In this document: positions 1 to 18,412 of the stretch, in pieces
How positions within the stretch are numbered: the first letter of the stretch is position 1
Layout: the number at the start of each line of letters is the position of its first letter
Assembly (NCBI RefSeq): GCF_002198115.1
Contig: NZ_NGNR01000001.1
Span: 186,001 to 250,000 of the forward strand
Length of the DNA stretch: 64,000 bases
Reading direction: 5' to 3'
Source of the DNA: Robiginitalea sediminis
GTDB taxonomy: Bacteria > Bacteroidota > Bacteroidia > Flavobacteriales > Flavobacteriaceae
The notes under the pieces: generated by a model
Databases searched by the model: none
What the model saw: the letters and a program-made list of their open reading frames with translations, nothing else
Told to the model about the DNA's origin: nothing
Program-made: the position numbers and the translations under genes

Positions 1-1442
1 ACGTATTTTTTCCGGTTTTCGGAGTACGAGGCCCGCTGGTGCCAGAACCGGGCAATGGCCACCAAAACTTCCAGCCCCATTTCCGGGATGTAGGTATAGT
101 CCCCGGTAAAGCGATAGTAGTTGTAAATGGCAAAAGCGATGGCCCCGTTGCGGTGGATTTCCTCGAAGGTAATCTCCCATTCGTTGTGGCATTCCTCCCC
201 GTTCATGGTCACCATGGGGTACAGGGCTGCCCCGCCTGAGAAGCCGAGCTTCTCGGCATTCTCAATGGCCTTGTCCAGCTGGTTGTACCGGTACTTGAGC
301 AAATTCCGCGCCACGTGCTGGTTCTTGGTAGCCATGTAAAACGGGATGCAATAGGCTTCGGTATCCCAATAGGTACTGCCACCGTATTTCTCCCCGGTAA
401 ACCCTTTGGGCCCGATGTTCAGGCGGGAGTCCCGCCCGGTGTAGGTTTGGTTCAGGTGCAGGATATTGAACCGGATCCCCTGCTGGGCCTTCACATCTCC
501 TCCTATGGTGATGTCGCTCATTTCCCAGACCGCAGCCCAGGCATCGCGCTGCTCCTGAAGCAGGGTTTCAAAACCGGCCTTCAGGGCGGAATCCAGGTTG
601 GCATCCGCCGCAGCCTCGAGGTTATCCTTGGGGTGGTTCATGCCCGTAACATAACCTCCGTATTTAAAGAGTACAAGGGTTTGGCCCGCGGCCACCTGTT
701 GCGTATACCGGTACCCGGCACGCGTGGGGCCCTCCACCGCTTCGCCGCTTTGCCCAACGGCACTGCCGTCCAGCTCCAGGCGGGAATCCATGAAGGTACA
801 GGTGCGGAAATGGGTCTTAAGGGTGTGTGCCAGGATGTAGGCCCGGGACCCGGAGGTCCGTACCCCCGTGGTCTCCCAGAAGGGGTCGTCCCAGTTGGTA
901 TCCTGGTTGGTAATACCGCTGTCTATATACGGTTCCAGGGTGACTTCGGCCCCCTGGTCCAGCACCCGGATTTCGTAGCGGATGGCCCCGATTTCATCCC
1001 GTTTCATGGAGAGGAAACGGCGGGCGTTTACGGCCACGGTTTTCCCGTTTTCCATTACGGCGGTAAAGGAGCGCTGGTACCAGCCTTCCTTCATATTGAG
1101 TTCCCTCCGGAAATCCTTGACGGATTTGCAAGTATGCAGGTCGAGGGGGGTACCGTCCACGGATACGGAAATACCGATCCAGTTTGGGGCATTGAGCACT
1201 TTGGCGAAATATTCGGGATATCCGTTTTTCCACCAGCCCACCCGGGTTTTGTCCGGGTAATACACCCCTCCTATATAGCTGCCCTGAAAGGTTTCACCGC
1301 TGTAATCCTCTTCGAAGTTGGCCCGCTGGCCCATGGCCCCGTTGCCAATACTGAAAAGGCTTTCGGAAGATTCTACCCGGCCGGGCTCAAATCCTTCCTC
1401 AATGATAGACCACTCATTAGGTATGATATAATCCTGATTCAT
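1..1442 (-). CDS. Glycoside hydrolase family 65 disaccharide phosphorylase (maltose/kojibiose/trehalose phosphorylase type), C-terminus outside window
   Basis: About 480 N-terminal residues are visible, starting at the ATG at 1442; the rest lies beyond the left edge. GH65 enzymes split an alpha-glucosyl disaccharide with phosphate to give beta-glucose-1-phosphate and glucose. The N-terminal beta-sandwich (roughly residues 1-270) leads into the (alpha/alpha)6 barrel. The GH65 signature NGEECHNEWEITFEE, near residues 413-427, carries the family's general-acid glutamate. The next gene encodes beta-phosphoglucomutase, the partner that converts beta-glucose-1-phosphate to glucose-6-phosphate, and its stop lies only 20 bp upstream of this start, so the two are one operon. 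Maltose is the usual substrate in flavobacterial operons, but the sequence alone does not fix the disaccharide. Confidence 0.9.
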   Translation of the reverse strand, partial: MNQDYIIPNEWSIIEEGFEPGRVESSESLFSIGNGAMGQRANFEEDYSGETFQGSYIGGVYYPDKTRVGWWKNGYPEYFAKVLNAPNWIGISVSVDGTPLDLHTCKSVKDFRRELNMKEGWYQRSFTAVMENGKTVAVNARRFLSMKRDEIGAIRYEIRVLDQGAEVTLEPYIDSGITNQDTNWDDPFWETTGVRTSGSRAYILAHTLKTHFRTCTFMDSRLELDGSAVGQSGEAVEGPTRAGYRYTQQVAAGQTLVLFKYGGYVTGMNHPKDNLEAAADANLDSALKAGFETLLQEQRDAWAAVWEMSDITIGGDVKAQQGIRFNILHLNQTYTGRDSRLNIGPKGFTGEKYGGSTYWDTEAYCIPFYMATKNQHVARNLLKYRYNQLDKAIENAEKLGFSGGAALYPMVTMNGEECHNEWEITFEEIHRNGAIAFAIYNYYRFTGDYTYIPEMGLEVLVAIARFWHQRASYSENRKKY

Positions 1443-1462: not shown

Positions 1463-2119
1463 TCAGGGACGCCCCTGGAGGAGTCCCGTAATAAAATCAC
1501 TATCAATTTCCGTAAAATCCCGGAAGACCCGGTCTGCCTCGGTAAGGACCTCCGGGTCCCCTATACCGATGCTGGTCATCCCGGCCGAGTTGGCTGCCGC
1601 GATACCGGCAAGGGCATCCTCGAAGACCACGCAGCTTGGGGCCGCTACCCCCAGGCGGGAGGCTGCAAGCTCAAAGACCTGCGGGTCCGGTTTGGCCCGG
1701 GTGGTATCGTGCCCGTCCACCACGGCGCTGAAGTATTCCGTAAGGCCCACCTTCTCCAGGATGGGCTTGGCATTCTTACTGGCAGAACCCAGGGCCATAG
1801 GCACCCCCCGGGAGCGCAGGAAATCCAGTACCCTGGGTACGTCCGGCAGAATTTCGGAGGCGTCCATTTTTGCAATGTACCCGAGGTAATCCTCGTTTTT
1901 CTCCACCAGCCAGCGGTCGAATTGCTCCTGAGACACGGTTAGCCCACCCATTTCCAGCAGGAGTTCCAGGCAGCGTTTGCGGCTTACACCCTTGAACTGC
2001 TCATTGTCCTCCTCTGTAAAAGGGATGTCCAAGTGGTCTGCCAGGTGTTTCCAGGCGTGGTAATGGTATTTGGCGGTATCGACGATAACGCCGTCGAGGT
2101 CGAATATGAATGCTTTCAT
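1463..2119 (-). CDS. pgmB: Beta-phosphoglucomutase, HAD superfamily
   Basis: A 218-residue protein that converts beta-glucose-1-phosphate to glucose-6-phosphate through a phospho-aspartate enzyme. HAD motif I is at the very N-terminus (FDLDGVIVDT, residues 4-13), with the nucleophile and general acid-base aspartates. Motif II is GSASKNA, motif III is the lysine of KPDPQVF, and motif IV is VFEDALAGI followed by the typical AAANSAGM. I chose the ATG at 2119 because it puts motif I at residue 4; the reading frame stays open further upstream, but that part has no HAD homology. It lies between the LacI-type regulator (87 bp upstream) and the GH65 phosphorylase, so it probably belongs to the same transcription unit. 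Confidence 0.92.
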   Translation of the reverse strand: MKAFIFDLDGVIVDTAKYHYHAWKHLADHLDIPFTEEDNEQFKGVSRKRCLELLLEMGGLTVSQEQFDRWLVEKNEDYLGYIAKMDASEILPDVPRVLDFLRSRGVPMALGSASKNAKPILEKVGLTEYFSAVVDGHDTTRAKPDPQVFELAASRLGVAAPSCVVFEDALAGIAAANSAGMTSIGIGDPEVLTEADRVFRDFTEIDSDFITGLLQGRP

Positions 2120-3238: not shown

Positions 3239-3352
3239 AGCTGTCGGTTGCGGTTTTCGACCATGAAAGTACGCAATATTCCCGTGGGGGAAAACAGCAT
3301 CAAACCATAATAAATACAGGTTATTAACAATGTTTTGGCAAATTTTGCTAAA

Positions 3353-3383
3353 TTGCCGGACGAATAAAAAAAAGCTATATTTG
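3353..3383 (+). promoter_or_regulatory. Candidate Bacteroidota -33/-7 promoter for SusC
   Basis: TTG at 3353-3355, a 20-bp spacer, then TATATTTG at 3376-3383, a full match to the TANNTTTG -7 element with consensus spacing. It would give a leader of nearly 200 nt that includes the LacI-type palindrome. A second weaker box (TACTTTG, about 3527-3533) would instead start transcription downstream of the palindrome. Confidence 0.4.
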
Positions 3384-3477
3384 ATTCGCTATTGGCAAAT
3401 TCCACCCCTCCGTAATACCGATTGGCTAATTTAGCGAGGTACAAATTATCAGATCAGCATTATCCAAAGTTATTAAC

Positions 3478-3493
3478 ACGAAACCGTTTTCGT
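3478..3493. promoter_or_regulatory. Candidate LacI-family operator
   Basis: The 16-bp sequence ACGAAACCGTTTTCGT is palindromic at 7 of 8 base pairs and has a central CpG, the hallmark of LacI-family operators. It lies 95 bp upstream of the SusC start and about 240 bp upstream of the divergent LacI-type gene. Binding by the adjacent regulator is inferred, not shown. Confidence 0.5.
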
Positions 3494-3587
3494 AAGGCCG
3501 CAGGTGCCGTAGAATAGGATATTAACCTTTTTTTTACATACTTTGACCCCTTGAATTAAATTAACTAAACTCAAAAATTAACTATCT

Positions 3588-6500
3588 ATGAAGATTACGC
3601 TACTGAAGGGCTTGTTGCTTGTCGGCGCATTTTTATGCTTCGGACTGGTGCAGGCGCAAGATGTATCAGGTACTGTTTCTGATGCAAACGGTCCGCTTCC
3701 GGGAGCCAGTGTGGTCGTTAAAGGAACCACCACGGGTACCCAGACGGATTTCGACGGTAATTATACGCTGTCGGGCGTACCCTCCGATGGAGTGCTGGTA
3801 TTCAGTTATATCGGTTATTCCACCCAGGAAATTGCCGTTAACGGGCAGTCCACTATTAACGTAACCCTGACGGAAGATGCCACGGCACTCGATGAAGTTG
3901 TGATCATCGGTTACGGTCAGACTACTGTTAAGGATGCGACAGGTTCGGTAACCGCAGTAACCTCCGACGACTTCAACGGCGGTGTCATCGCTTCCCCGGA
4001 ACAACTGATCCAGGGTAAGACAGCCGGTGTTAACATCCAGCAAACCAGTGGTGAGCCGGGTGCCGGGATCCAGGTAAACATCCGGGGTTCCAACTCTGTC
4101 CGCGGTAACAACAGCCCGCTGTTCGTAGTGGATGGGGTGCCGCTGTTCGGCCAGAACACCGATGCCTCCGGAGATACCGGACAGGGTGGAAGCGAAGTGG
4201 GTAACCCCCTTAACTTCCTTAACCCCAATGACATCGAAAGCATCTCTATCCTGAAAGATGCCTCTGCTACCGCTATCTACGGTTCACGGGGTGCCAACGG
4301 TGTTATCATCATTACTACCAAGAGCGGCCGCGGAGCCAGCGGCGGGCAGATCGAGTGGTCTTCCAGCCTGAGCATCTCCACCCCCGTTCGCAAGTACGAC
4401 CTGCTGGATGCCGACGGCTTCCTTCAGGCAGTTAGCGATTACGGCGGAAACCCGAACAACGTAAACTTCGGAGCCAACACAGACTGGCAGGAAGTAGTAC
4501 TGCGTACAGCCGCCTCCTCCAACCACAACATCGCCTACAGCCGCAACTACGGCTCCGGGAACGTCCGGGCCACTTTCGGTTACCAGAAGCAATTCGGTGT
4601 GGTTGAGAAGTCAGAATTTGAGCGGATTACCGGGCGCCTCAACCTGAACCAGCGCCTGCTGGATGACAAACTCATCCTGGGTCTTCAGGCTTCCGTAGGT
4701 CGCGTTAACCGGGAGCAGCCGCCTCTGGCTGCAGGAGCCGGATTCCGGGGTGACATCCTCGGTGCCGCCTACTCCGCCAACCCGACCTGGCCTTCCAACG
4801 CCGGCTTCGACGATGGTGGTGGGCAAATCCAGCCCGCCAACTACCTGAATGAAACTCAGAACCGCACCAACACCAACCGGTTCCTGATCAACGGTTCTGC
4901 CGAGTACAAGTTTACCCCGGAATTCTCCGCCAAGGTAAACCTGGGCTACGACCAGTCCGAAAGTGAGAACACTTCCGTACTGTCTACCAAACTCCAGAAC
5001 TTCACCGGTATTGAAGGAAACGGTTTCGGTACCTACAATACCCTGGACCGGGAAAACAAAACCCTTGAAGCTACCTTAAACTACGTTAAGGAATTCGAGA
5101 ACTCCAACCTCGACCTGCTCGTGGGTTATGCCTTCCAGGATTTCCGCACCTCCGGCCGCAACGCTGCCGGACGCGGGTTTGGTACTTCCGACCTGAACGA
5201 AATGGGCGATGACCTGCGCAACACCATCAACGCTGCCGCAGCCACCATCGACGGGTCTTACCAACAGTTCTACTACGGGACCAATACCTCCGGGCTGGTG
5301 GTTAACCGCCTCTTCCCGTCTGTTGTGGCCGGGGAAACCCAGTCCTTTCAGTTCCTCCGCGGCGTCCGCGCTGCGGTTGCCGATGTCTTCGACAACACCG
5401 ATGAGCTGCAATCGTTCTTCGGGCGTGTGAACTACAGCATTGCCGGCAAGTACCTCTTTACCGGTACCATGCGGGCAGACGGTTCTTCCCGTTTCGGTCC
5501 TGATAACCAATACGGGTACTTCCCCTCAGGAGCCTTCGCCTGGCAGATTGCCGAGGAGGATTTCATCGGGGAGAATGTCTCCACCCTGAAACTCCGTCTG
5601 AGTGCCGGTATCACCGGTAACCAGGATGGCCTTGGGTACGGAAACTTCGTAGCCCGCCAGCGTTTTGCCGGCCTGGGCATCAACAACGACAACACGGTTA
5701 ACCAAAACGGTCTTTCCATTGTTGCCACCGACGTTCCCGACCTGAAATGGGAATCTACCATCAACTTCAACGCCGGTCTCGATTTCGGGTTCAACCTGGA
5801 TCGTTTCAGCGGTAGTATTGATGTATACCGGAACGAAACCCAGGATGTACTGCTGCAAACGCCGCCGGCCGCGCCTTCTACCAACCCCTTCCAGTTTGGT
5901 AACGTGGACGCCAGCATCATCAACCAGGGTGTGGAACTCGCGTTGAACTACGACTTCGTACAAACCGAAGACGCCACGTTCTCCGCTTCCTTCAACATTG
6001 CCTACAACCAGAACGAGATCCAGGATTTCGCCGGCGCCATCAACACTGGTGAGATTGCAGGTCCCGGTCTTTCCGGAGCCTTTGCCCAGCGTTTCGAGGC
6101 GGGTCAGTCCCTGTTCTCCTACTACATGGCAGAGTTCCTTGGCTTCGACGCCAATGGAAACCCCCAGTACGAGGATGTTGACGGCAACGGTATCGGCGAT
6201 CCGGATTCCGACAAGAAATTCGTCGGAGAGGATGCCCTTCCGGATGTAACTACCGGTCTCAGCCTGAATTTCAACTACAAGAACTGGGATATGAGTGCCT
6301 TCTTCAGCGGGCAGTTCGGCTTCTCCGTTTACAACAACACGGCTAACTCCTTCTTCAACGCCGGCCAGATCGTTACCGCCCGTAACGTGACTGTCGACGC
6401 TGCCAACGCTGGCGAGAACGGAGGTGCTTCCACTGCGGTATCTACACGTTTCCTTGAAAAAGGAGATTTTGTACGGTTCCAGAACGCAACCATTGGCTAC

Positions 6501-6713
6501 AACGTGCCTCTTACTGGAGACGGGACGTTCAAGAGCCTGAGGTTCTCCCTTACCGGTCAGAACCTGCTGCTGATCACCGATTACAGCGGTATCGATCCTG
6601 AAGTTACCGTACCTACCGGTACGCTTGGTTCAGGAGTACCGACCCGGGGTATCGACTGGGCCGCGTTCCCGAACCCGCTTACTGTAACCTTTGGAATTAA
6701 CGCCACCTTTTAA
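3588..6713 (+). CDS. SusC-like TonB-dependent outer-membrane transporter
   Basis: A 1,041-residue SusC-type importer. It has a signal peptide (residues 1-23, ending VQAQ), an N-terminal carboxypeptidase-regulatory-like beta-sandwich (about 25-100) with the typical PLPGASVVVKGT pattern, a TonB plug (about 110-225, including the SusC-family SISILKDASATAIYGSRGANGV stretch), and a long beta-barrel ending in a hydrophobic strand with a C-terminal Phe. It would move a substrate captured by the SusD partner 18 bp downstream across the outer membrane using TonB energy. No SusE/SusF or GH13 gene follows, unlike classical starch loci, so the ligand is uncertain. The divergent LacI/pgmB/GH65 block argues for an alpha-glucoside, whereas the FG-GAP cassette downstream argues for something else. 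Confidence 0.95.
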   Translation: MKITLLKGLLLVGAFLCFGLVQAQDVSGTVSDANGPLPGASVVVKGTTTGTQTDFDGNYTLSGVPSDGVLVFSYIGYSTQEIAVNGQSTINVTLTEDATALDEVVIIGYGQTTVKDATGSVTAVTSDDFNGGVIASPEQLIQGKTAGVNIQQTSGEPGAGIQVNIRGSNSVRGNNSPLFVVDGVPLFGQNTDASGDTGQGGSEVGNPLNFLNPNDIESISILKDASATAIYGSRGANGVIIITTKSGRGASGGQIEWSSSLSISTPVRKYDLLDADGFLQAVSDYGGNPNNVNFGANTDWQEVVLRTAASSNHNIAYSRNYGSGNVRATFGYQKQFGVVEKSEFERITGRLNLNQRLLDDKLILGLQASVGRVNREQPPLAAGAGFRGDILGAAYSANPTWPSNAGFDDGGGQIQPANYLNETQNRTNTNRFLINGSAEYKFTPEFSAKVNLGYDQSESENTSVLSTKLQNFTGIEGNGFGTYNTLDRENKTLEATLNYVKEFENSNLDLLVGYAFQDFRTSGRNAAGRGFGTSDLNEMGDDLRNTINAAAATIDGSYQQFYYGTNTSGLVVNRLFPSVVAGETQSFQFLRGVRAAVADVFDNTDELQSFFGRVNYSIAGKYLFTGTMRADGSSRFGPDNQYGYFPSGAFAWQIAEEDFIGENVSTLKLRLSAGITGNQDGLGYGNFVARQRFAGLGINNDNTVNQNGLSIVATDVPDLKWESTINFNAGLDFGFNLDRFSGSIDVYRNETQDVLLQTPPAAPSTNPFQFGNVDASIINQGVELALNYDFVQTEDATFSASFNIAYNQNEIQDFAGAINTGEIAGPGLSGAFAQRFEAGQSLFSYYMAEFLGFDANGNPQYEDVDGNGIGDPDSDKKFVGEDALPDVTTGLSLNFNYKNWDMSAFFSGQFGFSVYNNTANSFFNAGQIVTARNVTVDAANAGENGGASTAVSTRFLEKGDFVRFQNATIGYNVPLTGDGTFKSLRFSLTGQNLLLITDYSGIDPEVTVPTGTLGSGVPTRGIDWAAFPNPLTVTFGINATF

Positions 6714-6731: not shown

Positions 6732-8354
6732 ATGAAAAGATATCTGAAGTATTTTTCTTTATCTCTGTTGGCGGTATTCGCCCTCGGTTCCTGTACAGAC
6801 CTGGAAATCGAGGAAACGGATTCCTTCATCAGCGAAGGGTTCCAGGGTCTTGAAGACCCCACCTCTGCGCTGAACCAGCTCTATAACCAGGTAGGAGGCC
6901 AGCTTGGCGACCAGGCCAACACCTACGCCCTTACCACCGTTACCACAGACGAACAGCTCATCCCTACCCGGGGTGCAGACTGGGGGGATAACGGACGTTG
7001 GAGGAAACTCCACCAGCACGAGTGGGGCTTTGAGGAAACTGACATCCTCACCCCCTTCGACCAGTGGAACGCTAACCAGCTCCTCGCATCCCAGATCCTG
7101 GATGACCGTACCGGAGCCCCGGCCGATGTAGCTGCCCAAGCCCGCTTCCTGCGCGCCTGGTCTATGTTCATCATCCTGGATTTCTACGGACAGGTTCCTT
7201 TCCGCGACACCCAGCTCTCTTCCTCAGAACTGCCTTCTGTCCTGACAGGAGCAGAAGCTGTTAGCTTTATCCTTGCCGACCTGGATGCAGCCATCTCCGG
7301 ACTGCCTGCCGTTCAGGCCGGAACCGGCGACCTGAGCAGGGCTTCCAAAGCCGCTGCCCGGATGCTGAAGGCTAAAGTGCTGCTGAACCGCCACATCTAC
7401 GAGAACCAACTCACTGGTGGAGGCGGGTCTCCCGCAGCCGGCGATATGCAGGAAGTAATCAGCCTGGTAGATCAGATTGCCGCCGATGGCTACGCCCTGC
7501 AAAGCGGCTACTTCGAAATCTTCGAAAACAGCGCTGACAGCGAAACCATCTGGTTCATCAACTCCGGTAACACCGGTAACCGTATCTTCAACGGGTTGCA
7601 CTACAACTCTACCGGTCTCGGTGGAGGAGGGTGGAACGGCTTCAGCACCCTTGCTGAGTTCTACGACCTCTTTGAAGGCGATGCCAACCAGAACCGTTTT
7701 GCCACAGACCTGGAAAGCGCCCAGATCGATGGGCAGGAAGAGCGTCGTGGTGGCGTTCCTCAGGAAGGTGTTCCCTTCTCAGGTGCCGCCAATACCTCCG
7801 ACAATGGCGGGTATGAGGATGGCTCCAACGTAGGACTTGGTTTCCTCGTAGGCCAGCAGTATGCCCTTAACGGGACTGCCCTGGAAGATCGTCAGGGACA
7901 GCCCCTGGTATTCTCCCGGGAGTTTGTTGACGGAGATGGTAACGCCAGCCTGATTAACAACGACGAGAAAACCGGTATCCGGGTAATGAAATACAGCCCC
8001 CGTTTCGGAGGAGGTTTCACTAACCACGTACTGGTTATGCGCTATGCCGACGCTCACCTGATGAAGGCAGAGGCCATGATGCGCAGCGGTGGCGACCCCA
8101 CTGCCATGGTAAACGAACTGCGTGTACTTCGCGGTGCTGCCCCTCTGGGTACCGTTACCGAGTCTGAGCTTCTGGACGAAAGAGGTCGTGAGCTCTACAC
8201 CGAAGGCTGGAGGCGTAACGATATGATTCGTTTCGGCCAATACCTGCGCAACTGGGAATTCAAGGCGGATACAGACCCCAAGCGTCTGCTCTTCCCCATC
8301 CCGCTGCCGCAGCTTCTGGCTAACCCGAACCTGGTTCAGAACCCGGGGTATTAA
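6732..8354 (+). CDS. SusD/RagB-like surface lipoprotein
   Basis: A 540-residue partner of the SusC protein upstream. The ATG at 6732 gives a lipoprotein signal ending LGSC, so mature Cys is residue 20. A TTG nine bases upstream is open but unnecessary. The body shows the SusD tetratricopeptide-like fold: ALNQLYNQVGGQ near the N-terminus, ARFLRAWSMFIILDFYGQVPF (about 137-157) and the C-terminal LLDERGRELYTEGWRRNDMIRFGQ pattern common to SusD/RagB. It should sit on the cell surface as the lid of the SusC barrel and bind the ligand. The protein is unusually Gly-rich around residues 225-310. A strong terminator follows 17 bp after the stop, so the SusCD unit is probably a separate transcript. Confidence 0.93.
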   Translation: MKRYLKYFSLSLLAVFALGSCTDLEIEETDSFISEGFQGLEDPTSALNQLYNQVGGQLGDQANTYALTTVTTDEQLIPTRGADWGDNGRWRKLHQHEWGFEETDILTPFDQWNANQLLASQILDDRTGAPADVAAQARFLRAWSMFIILDFYGQVPFRDTQLSSSELPSVLTGAEAVSFILADLDAAISGLPAVQAGTGDLSRASKAAARMLKAKVLLNRHIYENQLTGGGGSPAAGDMQEVISLVDQIAADGYALQSGYFEIFENSADSETIWFINSGNTGNRIFNGLHYNSTGLGGGGWNGFSTLAEFYDLFEGDANQNRFATDLESAQIDGQEERRGGVPQEGVPFSGAANTSDNGGYEDGSNVGLGFLVGQQYALNGTALEDRQGQPLVFSREFVDGDGNASLINNDEKTGIRVMKYSPRFGGGFTNHVLVMRYADAHLMKAEAMMRSGGDPTAMVNELRVLRGAAPLGTVTESELLDERGRELYTEGWRRNDMIRFGQYLRNWEFKADTDPKRLLFPIPLPQLLANPNLVQNPGY

Positions 8355-8528: not shown

Positions 8529-11500
8529 ATGCGGCCAACGATTATCACGCTTCTGACCCTGCTACTCCTTTCCGCATGCCGGGATGCCACCCCCCTATTC
8601 CGCGAACTCAAGCCCGGGCATACGGGGATTGCATTTGCAAACCGCCTGGAAGAAACCCCAGAGCTCAACATCCTCAATTACCTGTACTACTACAATGGAG
8701 CAGGCGTAGCGGCAGCGGACTTTAACAATGACGGGCTCATAGACCTGTACTTTACCGCCAACCAGCAGGCCGATGCCCTCTACCTGAACCAGGGCGGGTT
8801 ACAGTTCAAGGACATTACAGAGGCCTCCGGATTGCCGGTGGAGGCACTGGGCTGGACTACCGGGGTGACCCATGTGGATATCAACGCGGATGGCCTTTTG
8901 GATATCTACGTCTGCCAGGCCTCCGGCTACCGGAATCTCTCCGGGGTCAACCGCCTGTATGTCAACCAGGGCGTGGATGCCAATGGCATCCCCCAATTTG
9001 CCGAAAAAGCCGCAGACCATGGGTTGGATATCTCGGCCCTGAGCACCCAGGCCGCCTTTTTTGACGCCGACGGGGACGGCGACCTGGATGCCTTCCTGAT
9101 GAACCATTCGGTCCACCCTAACCGGAACTACGGGCGGGGGAGCCAACGACTGGGGTACGACCCCCTGTCCGGCGACCGCCTGTTGCGGAACGACAATGGC
9201 TTTTTTACGGACATCAGCCAGCAGGCGGGGATCTACCAGGGCAAGGCGGGATACGGCCTTGGCCTCGGCATCAGCGACCTGGACGGCAACGGGTATCCCG
9301 ATATCTATGTGGGCAACGACTTCTTCGAAAACGATTACCTCTATCTGAACCAGGGTAACGGGCAATTTGTGGAAGTAATTGCCTCCGATTCCTCCGGCGT
9401 GGGGCACACCACCCATTTCAGCATGGGCAATGACATTGCAGACCTGAACAACGACGCCCTCCCGGACATCCTTTCCCTGGATATGCTACCGGAAGACCTG
9501 GTCACCTACAAGACCTCCGGGCTGGAGTACGCCTACCCCATATACCGCCAATACCTGCAACAGGGGTTTGCCCCTCAATACATGCAGAATACCCTGCAGC
9601 TGAACCTGGGCGGCGGCCGCTTTTCCGAGGTAGGATACCTCAGCGGGGTTGCGGGCACCGAATGGTCCTGGGGGACCCTTATAGCCGATTTCGACAATGA
9701 CGGCTGGCGCGACATCTTTATCACCAACGGGATCAAAGGCGCCACCAACGATATGGACTATATGAACTTCATTGCCAATGAAGACATACAGCGCCGTATC
9801 GATGCAGGTATGCGGCAGTCCGATATGCCGCTTACCCGGGAGATCCCGCAGAAAAAGGTCCCCAACTATATCTTTCGCAATGAGGGAGACCTGGGGTTCT
9901 CCAACCAGAACGGTTCCTGGATGGACGCTCCTCCCTCCTTTAGCCACGGCTGCGTCTATGCCGACCTGGACCGGGATGGCGACCTGGACCTGGTGGTCAA
10001 CCACATGGACCAGACCGCTTCCCTCTATGAGAACACCCTATCCGGGGCGCATTACCTGGGCCTCCGTTTTGAAGGGCCCCATGCTAACCCCCACGGCATT
10101 GGCGCGCGGGTCTGGCTCTACGGTCCGCAAGGCATCCAAACCGCGGAAAATTTTCCAACCAGGGGCTATCTTTCGGCCGTTGCCCCTGAGGTGCACTTCG
10201 GTTTGGCAGAGACCCGCATCGATTCCCTGAAAGTCCTCTGGCCCGACGGTGCCACCCAGGTGCTGCGCCAAACCCCTGCCGACACCCTCCTTACCCTCCG
10301 CAGGGCCGATGCCCGGCCGGGTAAGGCATTCCCACAGGGACCCCCTCCCGTGTTACGCGCAAATGACTCCCTGTTCCCGGTACTGCATCGGGAGAACCCG
10401 GTCCTGGACTTCGACCGCGAACCCCTTATTGTGTATGCCGGGTCTACCCAGGGGCCTGCACTGGCTGTGTCAGACCTCAACGGCGATGGGCTGGACGACC
10501 TGGTCATAGGCGGGGCCAAACGCCAACCAACTGCCCTGTACCACCAGACAGCAGATGGGGATTTCCTCCCAGCCACCCCGGATATTTTTGAAGAAGACGC
10601 CCTTAGCGAGGATACCGCCCTGCTGCTGGTCGATGTAAACGGGGATGGCTGGACCGACCTGGTTACCGGGAGCGGCGGGAATGAATTTCGCGAAGGAGAG
10701 CCGTTGCAACCCCGGCTCTACCTTAACCGGGGCGGCCGCCTGGAAAAAACAACGGGAGCCTTCCCCGGAATAGAACTCAATGCCTCCCACATCAGCACCA
10801 CCGACCTGGAAGGAGACGGGGACCCGGACCTGCTCATCACTTCGGACGGGGTACCCGGGGCCTTCGGGAAGCCCCCTGTGCACTACTTGCTGGAAAATGA
10901 CGGCACCGGCACCTTCAAGGATGTCACCCATGCCCGCATCCCGGGTCTTACTGCTTCCGGGGCCATAAGTGCTGCCCAATGGGCAGATTTCAACGGGGAT
11001 GGCCGGACCGACCTGGCTGTAGCGGGACACTGGAGCCCGGTCCGCATCTTCCTGGCCAGGGGCAACCGCTGGGAGGAAGCTGCCGGAAACGGCCTTGAAA
11101 CTACCCATGGGTGGTGGAACGCCCTGCGCGCGGCAGACCTGGACGGGGATGGGGATACCGACCTCCTTGCCGGAAACTGGGGGCTCAACAGTAAATTCCA
11201 GGCCAGCCAAGAAACCCCGGTACGCCTCTATAGGAACGACTTCGACGAAAACGGCTCTGTAGAACCGGTGGTGACCTATTTCCATAAAGGAGTGGAAACC
11301 CCCTTTGCCTCCCGGGATGAACTGGCCAAACAAATGCCCTTCCTGAACAAGAAGTTCAGGACCTATAAGGCCTTTGCCCAGGCCAGCCTGCGCGAGGTCT
11401 TTTCGGATGAAGCCCTTCAGGCAGCCGAAAAAAGCGAAGTATACCTGCTGGCCAGCTGCATCTTCCGCAATGACGGGAAGGGTAACTTTCAAAAAGAGGA

Positions 11501-11813
11501 ACTGCCCCGGATTGCTCAGACCTCGGCGATTTTCGACTTTGGGGTGGAGGATTTCACCGGGGACGGCCAAACAGACGTCCTTGTGGTAGGCAACCACTAC
11601 GACATTAGCACCCAGCTGGGTAGGCTGGATGCCTTCCAGGGGTTACTTTTGCAGGGGGATTCCCGGGGCGGTTTCCGCTGGGACCCTCGAATGGACCCCT
11701 ATATCCCCGGGGCTGGAAGGTGTGTGGAACCCATCGAGATTGAAGGAAAAAAGACATGGATCATCGGCAGGAACAACGATACCCCCCTGCTGCTGTCCCA
11801 AACGAAAGAATGA
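8529..11813 (+). CDS. FG-GAP/VCBS-repeat lipoprotein with ASPIC/UnbV module (CRTAC1-like), first of three
   Basis: A 1,094-residue protein with a lipoprotein signal (lipobox LLSAC, Cys near residue 17). Two blocks of FG-GAP/VCBS repeats, rich in calcium-type loops such as DFNNDGLIDLY and DADGDGDLDA, flank an ASPIC/UnbV-like module at about residues 505-585 (NPHGIGARVWLYG, then VHFGLAE and LKVLWPDGATQVL). Each block is expected to fold as an integrin-type beta-propeller. No enzymatic motif is seen, so a ligand-binding or scaffold role outside the cytoplasm is the likely one. It begins a run of three paralogues: its TGA overlaps the next ATG. Such proteins are sometimes mislabelled RNA-binding; nothing here supports that. 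Confidence 0.85.
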   Translation: MRPTIITLLTLLLLSACRDATPLFRELKPGHTGIAFANRLEETPELNILNYLYYYNGAGVAAADFNNDGLIDLYFTANQQADALYLNQGGLQFKDITEASGLPVEALGWTTGVTHVDINADGLLDIYVCQASGYRNLSGVNRLYVNQGVDANGIPQFAEKAADHGLDISALSTQAAFFDADGDGDLDAFLMNHSVHPNRNYGRGSQRLGYDPLSGDRLLRNDNGFFTDISQQAGIYQGKAGYGLGLGISDLDGNGYPDIYVGNDFFENDYLYLNQGNGQFVEVIASDSSGVGHTTHFSMGNDIADLNNDALPDILSLDMLPEDLVTYKTSGLEYAYPIYRQYLQQGFAPQYMQNTLQLNLGGGRFSEVGYLSGVAGTEWSWGTLIADFDNDGWRDIFITNGIKGATNDMDYMNFIANEDIQRRIDAGMRQSDMPLTREIPQKKVPNYIFRNEGDLGFSNQNGSWMDAPPSFSHGCVYADLDRDGDLDLVVNHMDQTASLYENTLSGAHYLGLRFEGPHANPHGIGARVWLYGPQGIQTAENFPTRGYLSAVAPEVHFGLAETRIDSLKVLWPDGATQVLRQTPADTLLTLRRADARPGKAFPQGPPPVLRANDSLFPVLHRENPVLDFDREPLIVYAGSTQGPALAVSDLNGDGLDDLVIGGAKRQPTALYHQTADGDFLPATPDIFEEDALSEDTALLLVDVNGDGWTDLVTGSGGNEFREGEPLQPRLYLNRGGRLEKTTGAFPGIELNASHISTTDLEGDGDPDLLITSDGVPGAFGKPPVHYLLENDGTGTFKDVTHARIPGLTASGAISAAQWADFNGDGRTDLAVAGHWSPVRIFLARGNRWEEAAGNGLETTHGWWNALRAADLDGDGDTDLLAGNWGLNSKFQASQETPVRLYRNDFDENGSVEPVVTYFHKGVETPFASRDELAKQMPFLNKKFRTYKAFAQASLREVFSDEALQAAEKSEVYLLASCIFRNDGKGNFQKEELPRIAQTSAIFDFGVEDFTGDGQTDVLVVGNHYDISTQLGRLDAFQGLLLQGDSRGGFRWDPRMDPYIPGAGRCVEPIEIEGKKTWIIGRNNDTPLLLSQTKE

Positions 11814-14800
11814 AAATGAAAGCAAGACGACTTATAATAGCCCTCACGGGGATCTTTGCACTGGCATCCTGTGGCGACCAGCAGCAGGATAACGCAGGCG
11901 CAGCTGCCGGGCAGGAACCCCTTTTCACCCTGTTGCCTCCGGACAGTACCGGGGTCTCTTTTGTGAACCAGGTGGAAAACCAGAAGGAGTTCAACATTTT
12001 CAAATACCGCAACTTCTACAACGGAGGGGGTGTGGCCCTGGGGGACATCAACAACGACGGCCTCACCGATATCTTCCTTACCGGCAACATGGTGTCCAAC
12101 AAACTCTACCTGAACAAGGGGGGGTTCAAGTTCGAGGATATTACGGAATCTGCCGGGGTCGGGGGGAATAAACCCTGGTCTACCGGGGTCACCATGGCAG
12201 ATGTCAATGCCGATGGCCTGCTGGACATCTATGTGAGCAATGCCGGGAACATGGAAGGCAACAACCACGACAACGACCTGTATATCAACAACGGGGACAA
12301 TACTTTTACCGAGCGAGCCCACGAATTCAACCTGGCCGAAACGGGGTTCACCACGCATGCGACCTTCTTCGATTACGACAAGGACGGGGACCTGGATGCC
12401 TATATCCTGAACAACAGCAACATCCCTGTAAGCAGCCTGGGCTATGCCGAGCAGCGGGAGGTCCGCGCCCAGGACTGGGAAGGCGTCCCGCATATCTTCC
12501 GCGGCGTGGGCGACATGCTGCTGCGCAACGACGGGGGTACTTTTACAGACGTAAGCGAGTCGGCAGGTATCTACGGCAGCCTCATCGGTTTTGGCCTGGG
12601 GGTATTGGTGTCGGATTTTAACCAGGACCTGTACCCGGACATTTATGTCTCCAACGACTTCTACGAACGGGACTACCTCTACATCAACAACCAGGACGGG
12701 ACCTTCAGCGAACAGATCAAGGACTGGACCGGCCACCTGAGCCTTTCGGCCATGGGGATCGATATCGGGGATATCAATAACGACGGGCACCAGGACGTGT
12801 TTATAACCGACATGCTCCCCGAAGCCGAGCAGCGGGTAAAATCCGTTATGGAATTTGAAGGGTACAATGTCTACAAACTCAAGGAGGGCAAGGACTTCGG
12901 CCACCAGTACATCCAGAATACCCTGCAGCTCAACAACGGGAACGGGACGTTTTCCGAAGTGGCTTACTACAGTGGGGTTCATGCCACCGACTGGAGCTGG
13001 GCCGGGCTGATGTTCGACATGGACAATGACGGGTACCGGGATATCTTTGTGACCAACGGGATCAACCACGACCTTACGGACCTGGATTTTGTGGATTTCT
13101 TCGCCAATGAAATCATCCAGAAAATGGCCCTGACCGGCCGGAAGGAATCCATCGATTCCATCATCCAGAAAATGCCCATTAAACCTCAGCCCAATTACGC
13201 CTTCCGCAACAAGGGCGACCTGACCTTCAGCAATGCCAATGCAGACTGGGGCTTCGAACTCCCCACCCGTTCCAACGGCGCTGCCTACGGGGACCTGGAC
13301 AACGACGGCGACCTGGACCTGGTGGTCAACAACGTAAACATGCCCGCCTTTGTGTATCGCAACAATACCGAAACCCAAACCGACCACCACTACATCAGGT
13401 TCCGCTTCCTCGGCACGGACCAGAACCCCTTTGGGGTGGGAGCCACCGTGAGGGCCTACGCCAATGATCAGGTATGGGTTCAGGAACTGGTTCCCTCCAG
13501 GGGGTTCCAGTCTTCGGTGGACTACCGCATTACCTTCGGCCTGGGGGCCACTACCCAACTGGACTCCCTGCGGGTGATCTGGCCGGACGACAAAACCCAG
13601 GTCCTGACAGGGGTTGCGGCCGACCAGGAGGTCCTGTTGGACTATGCCAGCGCCAAGGAGGTATACCAGGTACCCCGGGCAGGAACTACCCCTTCCCTGC
13701 TCACCGAAGTACCCCTACAGGGGGTGAAGTCCCACAACGAAGACCTCTATAACGACTTCGACCACGAAGGGCTTATTTACGGGAAGCTCTCCCAGGAAGG
13801 CCCGGCCCTGGCCGTAGCCGATGTGGACGGGGACGGAAACGACGACTTTTACCTGGGGGGCGCCTCGGGGGAAAATGGCTCCTTGTACCTCCACCGCGGG
13901 CAGGGCAGACTCACCGAGAAACCATCCGCGGCATTCACAGCGGATGCAGCCTTCGAAGACACGGCAGCAGCCTTCTTCGACGCCGACGGGGACGGAGACC
14001 AGGACCTGATGGTCGCCTCCGGCGGGAACCAGGCAGACCGGTACCGTACCTACCGCCCCCGGCTGTACTTGAATGACGGAAAGGGGAACTTCGTTAAATC
14101 GGCCCAGGAACTGCCCACCAGCTTTAAGAACATGGCCACGGTAAGCCCCTACGACTTTGACGGGGATGGAGATGTGGATGTCTTTATTGGCTCGCGTTCG
14201 GTAGCCGGCATCTACGGTGTAGACCCGGACCACCTCCTCTTGGAGAACGACGGGTCCGGAAATTTCCAGAACGTCACAGACCGGGCCGGGAATGCCCTGA
14301 AGTACGCCGGGATGGTGACCGATGCCCAATGGGCGGATATGGACGGGGACGGCCGTAAAGACCTGCTGACCGTAGCAGACTGGGGGACCCCGAAGATCTA
14401 CACCAACAATGGCCGGCGGCTCAGCCCCATGGCCACAAGCCTGGACACCCTGGACGGCTGGTGGAACGCCCTTGCAGTCGCAGACCTGGACGGGGACGGG
14501 GACCAGGACCTGATCCTGGGCAACCAGGGGTCCAACCTGCATTACAAGCCCACCCCGGGCAAACCCATGAAGATGTGGGTAAATGATTTCGACGGGAATG
14601 GGACCCTGGAACAGGTGGTTACCCTCACCAATGAGGCAGGGGACTACCCCCTGCACCAGAAAAAGGAACTCACCGCCCAGGTGGTATCCCTCAAAAAAGA
14701 AAACCTGAAGGCCTCGGTCTACGCCGCCCGGACCATCCACGAACTGTTCCCCGGGGAACTGGTAAACCGCTCCATAGTGAAACGGGCCGTGATTTCCGAA

Positions 14801-15166
14801 TCGGTCCTGGCTATCAACGAGGGCAACGGGCAATTCCGCATCCAGGTACTACCGCCCCGCGTCCAGTTCTCATGCCTCTGCGACATCGCCTGTACGGACA
14901 TCAACCAGGACGGGAATCTGGACCTGATTATGGCCGGGAACAATTACGAATTCAAGCCACAGTTCTCCCGCCTGGATGCCAGCTACGGGAATGTACTGTT
15001 GGGGGATGGCGCCCTTGGCTTTGAGTGGCAGCCCTACGACCGCAGCGGCTTTGTCATGCGGGAAGAAGTGAAATACCTGCGCGAGCTTAAGGACCGGGAG
15101 GGACGTACCTACCTCCTGGCCGCGGCCAACGACAGCAAACCGAGATTATTTGCCATCAATGAGTAG
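11810..15166 (+). CDS. FG-GAP/VCBS-repeat lipoprotein with ASPIC/UnbV module, second of three
   Basis: A 1,118-residue paralogue of its neighbours. The ATG at 11810 overlaps the preceding TGA (ATGA), implying translational coupling; an ATG two codons later (11816) is an alternative. The lipobox is LASC (Cys near residue 21). The opening after the signal (GVSFVNQVENQKEFNIFKY, then GGGVALGDINNDGLTDIF) matches the first and third copies. The first repeat block spans about residues 40-510, the ASPIC/UnbV-like module about 525-600 (NPFGVGATVRAYA, RVIWPDDKTQVL) and the second block about 640-1100. Many DxDxDG or DxNxDG loops suggest calcium binding. No catalytic motif was recognised. Confidence 0.85.
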   Translation: MKMKARRLIIALTGIFALASCGDQQQDNAGAAAGQEPLFTLLPPDSTGVSFVNQVENQKEFNIFKYRNFYNGGGVALGDINNDGLTDIFLTGNMVSNKLYLNKGGFKFEDITESAGVGGNKPWSTGVTMADVNADGLLDIYVSNAGNMEGNNHDNDLYINNGDNTFTERAHEFNLAETGFTTHATFFDYDKDGDLDAYILNNSNIPVSSLGYAEQREVRAQDWEGVPHIFRGVGDMLLRNDGGTFTDVSESAGIYGSLIGFGLGVLVSDFNQDLYPDIYVSNDFYERDYLYINNQDGTFSEQIKDWTGHLSLSAMGIDIGDINNDGHQDVFITDMLPEAEQRVKSVMEFEGYNVYKLKEGKDFGHQYIQNTLQLNNGNGTFSEVAYYSGVHATDWSWAGLMFDMDNDGYRDIFVTNGINHDLTDLDFVDFFANEIIQKMALTGRKESIDSIIQKMPIKPQPNYAFRNKGDLTFSNANADWGFELPTRSNGAAYGDLDNDGDLDLVVNNVNMPAFVYRNNTETQTDHHYIRFRFLGTDQNPFGVGATVRAYANDQVWVQELVPSRGFQSSVDYRITFGLGATTQLDSLRVIWPDDKTQVLTGVAADQEVLLDYASAKEVYQVPRAGTTPSLLTEVPLQGVKSHNEDLYNDFDHEGLIYGKLSQEGPALAVADVDGDGNDDFYLGGASGENGSLYLHRGQGRLTEKPSAAFTADAAFEDTAAAFFDADGDGDQDLMVASGGNQADRYRTYRPRLYLNDGKGNFVKSAQELPTSFKNMATVSPYDFDGDGDVDVFIGSRSVAGIYGVDPDHLLLENDGSGNFQNVTDRAGNALKYAGMVTDAQWADMDGDGRKDLLTVADWGTPKIYTNNGRRLSPMATSLDTLDGWWNALAVADLDGDGDQDLILGNQGSNLHYKPTPGKPMKMWVNDFDGNGTLEQVVTLTNEAGDYPLHQKKELTAQVVSLKKENLKASVYAARTIHELFPGELVNRSIVKRAVISESVLAINEGNGQFRIQVLPPRVQFSCLCDIACTDINQDGNLDLIMAGNNYEFKPQFSRLDASYGNVLLGDGALGFEWQPYDRSGFVMREEVKYLRELKDREGRTYLLAAANDSKPRLFAINE

Positions 15167-18100
15167 AAGAGCCCTCATACCAGTACTCGTCCTGGGCCTC
15201 CTTGCGGGCTGTTCCCGCGGAGGGGAGGTTTTCGACCAACCCGGGCCCGGGGCCACCGGCCTGGACTTTACCAACCAGCTGCAGGAATCCGACCGGCTCA
15301 ATATCCTTGATTACCTCTACTTCTACAACGGGGGCGGGGTGGCCGTGGGCGATGTGAACCAGGACGGGCTGCCGGACATCTATTTTTCCGGGAACCAGGT
15401 GGGCAACAAGCTCTACCTGAACCGGGGTGGCATGCAGTTCGAAGATGTGACCGAAACGGCAGGAGTAGCCGGGCAAAGCACCTGGAACACCGGTGCCGTG
15501 ATGGCCGACGTGAATGCCGACGGCCTGCTGGACATCTACGTATGTGCCGTGGTGGGCATCAATGGCTTTACCGGCCACAACGAGCTCTTTATCAACAATG
15601 GGGACGGGACCTTCACCGAGCGGGCCGCCGAATTCGGGCTGGACCTGGACACCTACAGTTCCAATGCGGCCTTCCTGGACTACGACGGGGACGGGGACCT
15701 GGACATGTACCTGCTTAACCACGCCGTCCATACCCAGGACTCCTACGGGAAGGCGTCCCTGCGGTACGAGCGCAACTACGAGACCGGGGACCGGCTCATG
15801 CGAAACGACGGCGGGAGGTTCACCGACGTAAGCGAAGCGGCCGGCATCTATGGCGGCATCAATGGGTACGGGCTTGGGCTGGCAGTATCCGACTTCAACC
15901 AGGACGGCTACCCGGACCTTTATATCGGCAACGACTTCCACGAGGACGACTACTTTTACCTGAACAACGGAGATGGCACCTTTACGGAAAGCCTCCGGGA
16001 CTACTTCGGGCATACCAGCCGGTTTTCCATGGGCAGCGACGTGGCCGACATCAACAACGACGGGCGCCCGGATATGATTTCCCTGGATATGCTCCCGGAA
16101 GACGAGGTGCCCCTCAAATCCTCAGAGGGGGACGACAATGTGCAGACCCAGCGTATGCGCACCGAGGAATTCGGCTATTACTACCAGTTTACCCGCAATA
16201 TGCTCTACGTGGGGCAGCCGGACGGCCGCTTTAGCGAAACGGCCCTTATGAGCGGGGTTGCCGCCACCGACTGGTCCTGGAGTGCCCTTTTTGGCGACTG
16301 GAACCTGGACGGCCACCAGGACCTCTTTGTTTCCAACGGGATCCCCAAGCGCCCCAACGACCTCGATTTTGTGCGGTATATCTCCAATGACCAGATCAGC
16401 AGCACCATGGACAATACCCGCCTGGTAGACCAGGAAGCTCTGGAGATGATGCCCTCGGGGAATGTCCACAATTACGTCTTTGAAGGCCGGGAAGGTCTTG
16501 GGTTTGAGGACCGCAGCAACCAATGGATGCAGCCGGACACCCTGCTTTCCGGGGCAACGGCCTGGGCCGATTTCGATGCCGATGGGGACCTGGACCTTGT
16601 GGTGAATAACCTGAACCACCCTGCCAGCCTGCTGGTGAACAAAAGCGAAAAGAAGGGCAACTACCTGAAACTCCGCCTGCAGTTCTCCCCGAAAAACCGT
16701 TTTGGGGTGGGCAGCAAAGTCTTCGCCTATACGAATGCCGGAATGCTGTACCGGGAGCTCTTCCCTGTCCGTGGGTTCCAGGCGTCCTCCGAACCCATGG
16801 TTCACCTGGGCTTTTCCCCGGGCCAGCAAGTCGATTCCATCCGGGTGGTGTGGCCGGACAATACCTACCAGACCCTTGTGGCTCCCGACCTGAACCAAGA
16901 CCTGGTCCTGACCCCGGACGGCCCCAAACCCTTCGACTACAATTCTATCAAAACCCGCAGTAAATCTCTGTTTGTGCGGACACAGGATAACCTCGGGCTT
17001 CAGTTTACCCACCGGGAAGACCGGTACACGGATTTTAACCGGGAAAAACTCCTCCCCTACAGCTTTGCAGACCGCGGGCCTGCCTTTGCCGTAGGGGACC
17101 TGGATGGAGACGGGAAGCAGGATGTCTTTTTTGGCGGCTCCAAGCGCATCCCTTCCCAGGGCTTTATTCAACAGGACACTACCTTTATACCCTACCCTTT
17201 ACCAGAGATTACGGCAGACAGCCTCCCGGAAAATACAGCAGCCCTGCTAGCCGATTTCGACCGGGACGGGCAGGACGACCTCCTAATAGGAAACGGGGGG
17301 TCCGACTTCTTTGGCACTTCCAAACCCCTGCTGAACCAGTATTTCAAATACACCGGCGGGCAGTGGATGGAAGAAGGCCTTCCGGAGTCCTACAGCAATA
17401 CCGCGGTCCTGGCCCCTTACGATTTTGATGGGGACGGGGACCTGGACCTTTTTGTGGGCAACCTCTCCCTTACAGGACAATTCGGGTCTGCCCCGGATTC
17501 CTACCTGTTGGAAAACCAAAACGGCACCTTTATCCTGTCCGGGGCGCTGGACGGTAAAGGCCTGGGCATGGTAACCGATGCGTTGTGGACCGATTTCGAT
17601 GCCGACGGGGACGGGGACCTCATTGTTGTGGGGGAATGGATGGCCCCGGTGTTTTTTACCAACCGGGACGGCCGCTTTGAAGGGACTTCCAACCCAGCCC
17701 AAACCGGCCTGTGGCAATCGGTAGCGGCCATGGATATGGACGGGGACGGAGACACCGACATCGCCCTGGGCAACTGGGGTGCCAACTCCAAATTCAGGGC
17801 CTCGGAGGAACGCCCCTTGCGGCTATACCTCTCAGATTTCGACAAGGATGCCAGCCCGGACCCGGTTATCGCCACCGCCAAAGGCGATGGGTATTACCCC
17901 CTTGTGGGCCTGGACGAACTGGGGTCCCAGATGGTGTTTTTAAGGCGGAAATTCCCGAAGTACCGGGATTTTGCCGGACGCACTATGGAGGAAATTTTCG
18001 GGAAGGAAGCCCTGGAGGCCAGCAGGGTCTCAGAGGTGCGGGAGCTCCGCTCCGGCTACCTCCGAAACAACGGCGGCATCTTTGATTTTGTTCCGTTCTC

Positions 18101-18404
18101 TGAAGCCTTGCAGGTAGCCCCCATCCTGGAGCTCCTCCCTTACGATTTTGACGGGGATGGGACGGAAGAGCTTCTGGCAGCCGGGAACTATTTCGGGCTG
18201 AAACCCTACCAGGGGCGGCTGGACGGCTTTCCGGGGGCTCTCATAAAACCGGATGGCCATGTGCTGCCAGCTAACGAATTGGGCCTGGAATTGCTCCATA
18301 AATCGGTACGCCACCTGAAGATAATTACCTTTAAAAACAAACCCTACCTGCTGGCAGTGTTCAACAATGCCCCGGTAGAAGTATATGCCTTAACCTCAAA
18401 ATAA
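15159..18404 (+). CDS. FG-GAP/VCBS-repeat lipoprotein with ASPIC/UnbV module, third of three
   Basis: A 1,081-residue protein. I chose the ATG at 15159, eight bases inside the end of the previous gene, because it leads straight into a lipoprotein signal with lipobox LLAGC. The two-propeller layout repeats: N-terminal FG-GAP block, ASPIC/UnbV-like module at about 505-575 (NRFGVGSKVFAYT, VVWPDNTYQTL), C-terminal FG-GAP block. The copies are clearly diverged in sequence, so the three are old paralogues with probably distinct binding roles and not a fresh duplication. The haloperoxidase-like gene starts eight bases after its stop. Confidence 0.85.
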   Translation: MSRRALIPVLVLGLLAGCSRGGEVFDQPGPGATGLDFTNQLQESDRLNILDYLYFYNGGGVAVGDVNQDGLPDIYFSGNQVGNKLYLNRGGMQFEDVTETAGVAGQSTWNTGAVMADVNADGLLDIYVCAVVGINGFTGHNELFINNGDGTFTERAAEFGLDLDTYSSNAAFLDYDGDGDLDMYLLNHAVHTQDSYGKASLRYERNYETGDRLMRNDGGRFTDVSEAAGIYGGINGYGLGLAVSDFNQDGYPDLYIGNDFHEDDYFYLNNGDGTFTESLRDYFGHTSRFSMGSDVADINNDGRPDMISLDMLPEDEVPLKSSEGDDNVQTQRMRTEEFGYYYQFTRNMLYVGQPDGRFSETALMSGVAATDWSWSALFGDWNLDGHQDLFVSNGIPKRPNDLDFVRYISNDQISSTMDNTRLVDQEALEMMPSGNVHNYVFEGREGLGFEDRSNQWMQPDTLLSGATAWADFDADGDLDLVVNNLNHPASLLVNKSEKKGNYLKLRLQFSPKNRFGVGSKVFAYTNAGMLYRELFPVRGFQASSEPMVHLGFSPGQQVDSIRVVWPDNTYQTLVAPDLNQDLVLTPDGPKPFDYNSIKTRSKSLFVRTQDNLGLQFTHREDRYTDFNREKLLPYSFADRGPAFAVGDLDGDGKQDVFFGGSKRIPSQGFIQQDTTFIPYPLPEITADSLPENTAALLADFDRDGQDDLLIGNGGSDFFGTSKPLLNQYFKYTGGQWMEEGLPESYSNTAVLAPYDFDGDGDLDLFVGNLSLTGQFGSAPDSYLLENQNGTFILSGALDGKGLGMVTDALWTDFDADGDGDLIVVGEWMAPVFFTNRDGRFEGTSNPAQTGLWQSVAAMDMDGDGDTDIALGNWGANSKFRASEERPLRLYLSDFDKDASPDPVIATAKGDGYYPLVGLDELGSQMVFLRRKFPKYRDFAGRTMEEIFGKEALEASRVSEVRELRSGYLRNNGGIFDFVPFSEALQVAPILELLPYDFDGDGTEELLAAGNYFGLKPYQGRLDGFPGALIKPDGHVLPANELGLELLHKSVRHLKIITFKNKPYLLAVFNNAPVEVYALTSK

Positions 18405-18412
18405 AAGAACTG

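Follow-up and report, generated by a model that had tools for sequence, protein, structure and literature searches.

In Robiginitalea sediminis (Flavobacteriaceae), a gene for a LacI-family regulator stands divergently beside a SusC/SusD pair, and the 349-bp gap between them holds a short palindrome. This raises the question of whether the palindrome is an operator of the adjacent regulator and, if so, which genes it would control. The features discussed here (Table 1) lie in a stretch of 64,000 nucleotides, which we call the window.

Table 1. Genes and regulatory elements of the window around the lacI/SusC gap
Feature	Position	Strand	Basis or remark
GH65 phosphorylase, maltose-phosphorylase-like	3..1442	-	runs off window; complete in L046
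pgmB, beta-phosphoglucomutase	1463..2119	-	TIGR01990 above cut-off
LacI-family regulator (lacI), only LacI HTH in genome	2207..3238	-	PF00356 and PF13377 above cut-off
Second promoter-like pair TTG-N20-TATATTTG	3353..3383	+	upstream of operator; alternative SusC promoter
Conserved flank AAAGTTATTAAC (consensus AAAGTTNTYAAC)	3466..3477	+	abuts operator at SusC promoters
Predicted LacI-family operator ACGAAACCGTTTTCGT	3478..3493	.	palindrome, conservation, spacing, matrix score
Promoter-like box TTTTACATACTTTGACC (consensus TTTTACATAnnTTTAAC)	3532..3548	+	TA 45 bp past operator end
SusC-type TonB-dependent transporter	3588..6713	+	TIGR04056 above cut-off
SusD-type lipoprotein	6732..8354	+	nearest solved relative B. 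theta SusD
Three FG-GAP / ASPIC-UnbV (CRTAC1-like) proteins	8529..18404	+	first two domain-scanned
PAP2-family protein	18413..19771	+	domain scan

A conserved palindrome upstream of SusC

The first-pass annotation had proposed a LacI-type operator in this divergent region, a 16-bp palindrome with seven of eight pairs matched around a central CpG, and the letters of the window bear out that description (CpG at 3485-3486). A CG-centred palindrome of 16 bp is the usual form of a LacI-family operator. When the 352-bp intergenic stretch is dinucleotide-shuffled 5000 times, however, 3.9% of the shuffles contain a CG-centred palindrome with at least seven pairs and 26% contain one with any centre, so that the bare palindrome is unconvincing by itself. 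The site is the sole spot with fewer than three mismatches across the 64-kb window. An Rfam search of 3200-3700 gave no match at E up to 1, and a known leader RNA is thus absent there. Between lacI and the operator, within 3335-3431, lie two copies of TTGGCAAATT and one of TTGGCTAATT, with no block conservation in relatives.

The closest relatives of the regulator, taken from 149 genomes, fall into two arrangements. In the pgmB type (L001-L019) lacI and SusC are divergent, and nearly all loci have pgmB and GH65 after lacI. In the MFS type (L020-L030) lacI is divergent from another kind of SusC and is followed by an MFS gene in most; assignment to the MFS type used the locus number range and the kind of SusC, which are the sole marks for L142-L163. 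A motif search upstream of orthologous SusC genes, which the first-pass annotation had suggested as a check, recovers the palindrome in all 19 pgmB-type loci, where it matches the perfect palindrome ACGAAAACGTTTTCGT at no fewer than 14 of 16 bases and lies at -108 to -121 from the SusC start. Conservation in relatives was one of the two points on which that annotation had staked its proposal, and on this point the proposal stands. ACGAAAACGTTTTCGT is also the fully palindromic consensus of 50 sites, reverse complements included in the 50. Among 80 loci from named GTDB genomes, 76 were assessable (L097 has Ns in its intergenic region; L134, L135 and L141 have no adjacent SusC), and these include R. 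aurantiaca (L093). At least 13/16 is reached by 74 of them, against 60 of 7600 shuffles, and at least 14/16 by 68, against 3 of 7600. L154 and L160 score below 13/16, and two Arenibacter loci (L105 and L112) pass the score without the flank and spacing described below. That the palindrome arose by chance is barely credible. An equally good one does turn up at the shuffle frequency given above, but conservation already refutes a chance origin: all 19 loci have the site, although the rest of their intergenic DNA largely defies alignment from one genus to another.

The alpha-glucan locus

The regulator heads an operon of the order lacI-pgmB-GH65-GH13-GH13, the two GH13 genes following GH65 outside the window. 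The earlier hint that the SusCD ligand is an alpha-glucoside holds up well against the gene content: GH65 scores 762 bits against maltose phosphorylase (1h54) and 415 against kojibiose phosphorylase, the first GH13 is closest to cyclomaltodextrinase and SusA, and the nearest relative of SusD is noted in Table 1. Judged from genes alone, SusC/D with GH13 and GH65 and without SusE/F is the content of an alpha-glucan polysaccharide utilization locus (PUL) of the open-type SusD, a type marked by the absence of a 17-residue loop and of two ligand residues from SusD. Reduced alpha-glucan PULs of this content, also without SusE/F, are described for marine Flavobacteriia in PMC6298971; for the open-type SusD PUL, the proteome in PMC11093988 shows SusC/D as abundant also on xylan, which was not mirrored by GH13 and GH65. 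The word "regulator" did not appear in a text search of these two papers. In the present locus, as distinct from those PULs, the three CRTAC1-like genes and the PAP2 gene (8529-19771) follow SusCD in place of SusE/F. This order is kept within the genus; G027, G020 and G041 yielded no more than diverged SusC and CRTAC-like genes. In a further Robiginitalea genome (G007; L047 and L048), the window-type lacI is separated from pgmB-GH65-GH13-GH13 by a second SusC/SusD pair and a second lacI of 52% identity, an arrangement that looks like the fusion of two alpha-glucan loci.

The regulator

The lacI product combines the LacI helix-turn-helix domain (PF00356) with a periplasmic-binding-like domain of the sugar-binding type (PF13377). 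No NCBIfam equivalog reaches its cut-off for this protein; the CcpA model (TIGR01481) gives 170 bits against a cut-off of 442, and the Cra/FruR model (NF008452) gives 130 against 385. The genome of the window, which is 100% complete, has exactly one PF00356 match, namely this gene, and a LacI-type site there can hardly belong to another LacI as far as PF00356 detects them. A single LacI helix-turn-helix is found in nine of the ten genus genomes, with three in G007. The pgmB-type and MFS-type LacI paralogues have their recognition helix and their site in common. Stand-alone LacIs of other genera carry the same SISTVSKAL helix and group apart from the PUL-borne ones, in a tree in which several deep forks are weakly supported; the helix was read in part of the LacIs of those genomes. 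Because this helix is shared, trans sites outside Robiginitalea may belong to the stand-alone LacIs.

That the palindrome is instead the operator of another transcription factor family seems very improbable to us. LacI binding is read here from sequence, and with the conserved AAAGTTNTYAAC abutting the site a further factor may well occupy the neighbouring DNA; against this stand the typical LacI-family form of the palindrome, the helix and site shared by the two paralogue types, and the co-occurrence of LacI and site across genomes. By all the tests that sequence permits, the palindrome reads as a LacI operator, and as an ordinary one in itself.

Anatomy of the SusC promoter region

Spacing and alignment were assessed in 65 pgmB-type and 31 MFS-type loci, after setting aside L097, L105, L112, L129, L134, L135, L141, L023 and six duplicate loci. 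With the pgmB-type loci aligned on the operator, conservation is 1.83 bits per column across the site and 1.69 across the neighbouring AAAGTTATTAAC, compared with 0.38 bits at columns -60 to -20 and 0.21 bits at +16 to +40. The flank is found at both types of SusC promoter, as an exact GTTNTNAAC in 58 of 65 pgmB-type and 25 of 31 MFS-type loci, and none was seen at the pfkA or MFS gene sites described below. It has the look of a binding site for a further factor and is possibly a co-activator element.

Bacteroidetes promoters follow the consensus TTG, TAnnTTTG; matches to it were taken as promoter boxes, and transcription starts were predicted from the boxes. In the pgmB-type alignment the TTTTACATAnnTTTAAC box begins about 38 bp beyond the operator. 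From the operator end to the TA of the box there are 43-46 bp in 61 of 65 pgmB-type loci and 44-46 bp in 23 of 31 MFS-type loci, and two MFS-type loci have 34-35 bp, one turn less. The SusC transcript would start near 3550. The TATATTTG element of the second promoter-like pair is present in most Robiginitalea loci and absent from L015 and L016.

The site lies at about -110 from the SusC start in the window and 105-131 bp upstream of it in 63 of the 65 pgmB-type loci (the other two have miscalled starts), while its distance to lacI ranges from 206 to 510 bp across the pgmB-type loci and is about 100 bp in most MFS-type loci. The steady distance to SusC and its box, together with the variable distance to lacI, marks the site as a SusC element. 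The first-pass annotation had read it as coupling SusC to the GH65/pgmB regulon, a claim that these distances do not favour. A bidirectional operator serving both SusC and lacI-pgmB-GH65, which would be compatible with the dual regulator that we propose below, strikes us as unlikely. It would account for all 19 loci having a single site between the divergent operons, and the short distance to lacI at most MFS-type loci would suit it; the wide range of lacI distances at pgmB-type loci does not. Of the 65 pgmB-type loci none has a second intergenic site of at least 12/16, as four MFS-type loci do, and a role of the site for lacI-pgmB-GH65 thus gains no backing. The proteome in PMC11093988 would likewise fit regulation of SusC, but not of the phosphorylase operon, through the site.

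Sites elsewhere in the genome

A matrix from 50 sites was scanned over the genome of the window, and a pattern search with inspection of the hits supplied the trans sites, which the first-pass annotation had missed while its operator and alpha-glucan link stood. The top five matrix sites, at 13.5-15.7 bits, belong to SusC, a second SusC, an MFS transporter, pfkA-gapA and pckA, and the next site scores 10.9. This ranking is partly circular because the five sites were themselves in the training set; other strong sites are still absent. Upstream of pfkA, which is followed by gapA, the site (C8:230830) reaches at least 14/16 in all nine genus genomes with an ortholog and at least 13/16 in 14 of 18 genomes overall, falling below that in G027, G020, G010 and G046. 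The site upstream of the MFS transporter (C1:1165749), a protein with weak GPH-sucrose similarity, scores at least 13/16 in 6 of 13 orthologs and is weak or missing in the other 7. Upstream of the second SusC, and close to its start codon, the site (C8:213412) occurs in 5/5 genus orthologs, with none in the orthologs read outside the genus.

Between operator end and box there are 54-57 bp in 13 of the 15 pfkA loci listed, several of which have a second candidate box at 45-49 bp, and 54-56 bp in 11 of 13 MFS loci, weak sites included. The SusC class of 43-46 bp and the pfkA/MFS class of about 54-57 bp are thus about one helical turn apart.

Other matches to ACGAAAMCGNTTTCGT with two mismatches in the same genome lie mostly within unrelated coding sequences, one (C11:50680) being intergenic, and were not retained. 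A sixth, weak site (12/16; L278 and L312) is seen in G007 and in the genome of the window (G000) at the second GAPDH gene, gapB (NF006139, 482 aa), where it overlaps the bases immediately before the promoter box; with two genomes, it is a candidate only. In four genomes (L294, L296, L297 and L298) an AsnC/Lrp-like gene, named by eye, is also preceded by the operator pattern, at a distance of about 112 bp.

A predicted operator within pckA

The fifth site (C1:256162) lies inside the pckA coding sequence, at codons 8-12. These codons read ACG AAA ACG/TCG ATT TCG, with GCG first in one, in 9/9 genus genomes with an ortholog and also in G035, G065 and G046 (GCG first); they differ in 5 of the 17 genomes displayed (G010, G020, G027, G059 and G084), G041 lying outside this display. 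When the nine genus genes are aligned over 538 codons, 349 degenerate columns are invariant in amino acid, of which 7 are invariant in codon as well, and nowhere but at codons 8-12 do three or more successive codons share identical third bases; with twelve genomes, 4 of 324 columns are codon-invariant and the same run alone persists. Such a run implies that the DNA itself is under selection.

The pattern CGAAAWCGATTTCG is present in 53 of 70 LacI-positive and 1 of 20 LacI-negative family members in a search of 149 relatives, against 21 of 70 and 10 of 20 for a reversed control pattern; the Fisher p of 9e-9 for co-occurrence applies to genomes that are related and therefore non-independent. The pattern falls at codon 8 or 9 of pckA in 18 of 30 fetched loci, and G068 has the pckA site without a LacI match. 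In most genomes the pckA promoter-like box ends about 24 nt before the ATG, and the operator would lie some 45-50 bp downstream of the start.

Proposed mechanism

The site, its conservation and spacing, the sole LacI, the target genes and the codon constraint in pckA appear well supported by the sequences, and from them we infer binding itself, the start sites, the direction of regulation and the effector. We lean towards the adjacent LacI being a CcpA-like dual regulator, whose small regulon would join alpha-glucan uptake to central carbon flux. The SusC, pfkA and MFS sites lie upstream of their promoter-like boxes and the pckA site downstream of its predicted start. On the SusC operator, LacI would sit about 65 bp upstream of the predicted start, and at pfkA-gapA and the MFS sugar transporter about 75 bp upstream, on one helix face with respect to the promoter box. 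According to PMC3463425, CcpA is an activator when its site lies upstream of -35 and a block to elongation when the site is downstream or intragenic, with dependence on helix face. Following this position rule and that of AraQ and MalR1 (see below), bound LacI would increase expression of SusC, MFS and pfkA-gapA and decrease that of pckA: from upstream it would most likely activate the former, as CcpA does from upstream cre sites, and within pckA it would most likely block elongation. With sugar in supply, SusCD, the inner-membrane transporter and glycolysis may then go up and gluconeogenesis down, a combination that would be coherent for growth on alpha-glucan.

More tentatively, the LacI of the polysaccharide locus may be the family's counterpart of CcpA and Cra, a glycolysis/gluconeogenesis switch which in Robiginitalea would activate SusCD, MFS and pfkA-gapA from phased upstream sites and repress pckA through codons 8-12, while stand-alone LacI paralogues would share the operator elsewhere.

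The strongest of the alternatives, though still an unlikely one, is a classical local repressor, in which sugar-free LacI represses SusC and a maltodextrin-derived ligand releases it. The regulator gene does lie within the sugar operon, the site at the second SusC is near the start codon, and most LacI-family regulators are local according to PMC4052901. The repressor reading is kept alive all the more by the promoter-like pair at 3353-3383, relative to which the operator would occupy a downstream, repressor position. However, at 61 of 65 loci the site precedes the nearest promoter-like box and is in phase with it, the same holds at pfkA and MFS, and joint repression of pfkA and pckA would make little metabolic sense.

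Significance and comparison with known systems

A link between polysaccharide uptake and central metabolism in Bacteroidota beyond Bacteroides is little described in the papers that we found. One regulator with five sites and no other LacI in the genome makes a small testable circuit, with predicted shifts in SusC, pfkA and pckA. The pckA site is in addition a clear case of regulatory sequence constraining synonymous codons in a conserved enzyme, and it recurs in many genera of the family. Among open-licence PMC papers we recognized no report of this operator, and none in which pckA or pfkA of Flavobacteriaceae is under LacI control or in which pckA carries an intragenic operator; in the available portion of a Bacteroides regulon study, LacI regulators are given for uronates only.

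The nearest parallel is CcpA and its cre sites in Bacillus subtilis. Both regulators are of the LacI/GalR family and both sites are CG-centred pseudo-palindromes, with the core CGAAA..TTTCG here and WTGNNARCGNWWWCAW in cre. Activation of ackA by CcpA requires an extra element upstream of cre (PMC3463425), and we liken that element to AAAGTTNTYAAC. In contrast to CcpA, the present regulator has about five sites and not dozens, and its gene lies inside a PUL. In Bifidobacterium breve, the LacI-type regulators AraQ and MalR1 use near-identical operators, turn-spaced upstream of central-carbon promoters, and are believed to activate from them (PMC6882875). That system belongs to another phylum and has another operator, whereas here one genus has kept a single regulator and an intragenic pckA site is present. 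Cra/FruR of Enterobacteria exerts LacI-family control over glycolysis versus gluconeogenesis (PMC4052901), repressing the former and activating the latter; the sign predicted here is the opposite, and the lacI product is no equivalog. LacI-family dual regulators are already known, and what is unusual about the present system is that its site recurs at pfkA-gapA and within pckA.
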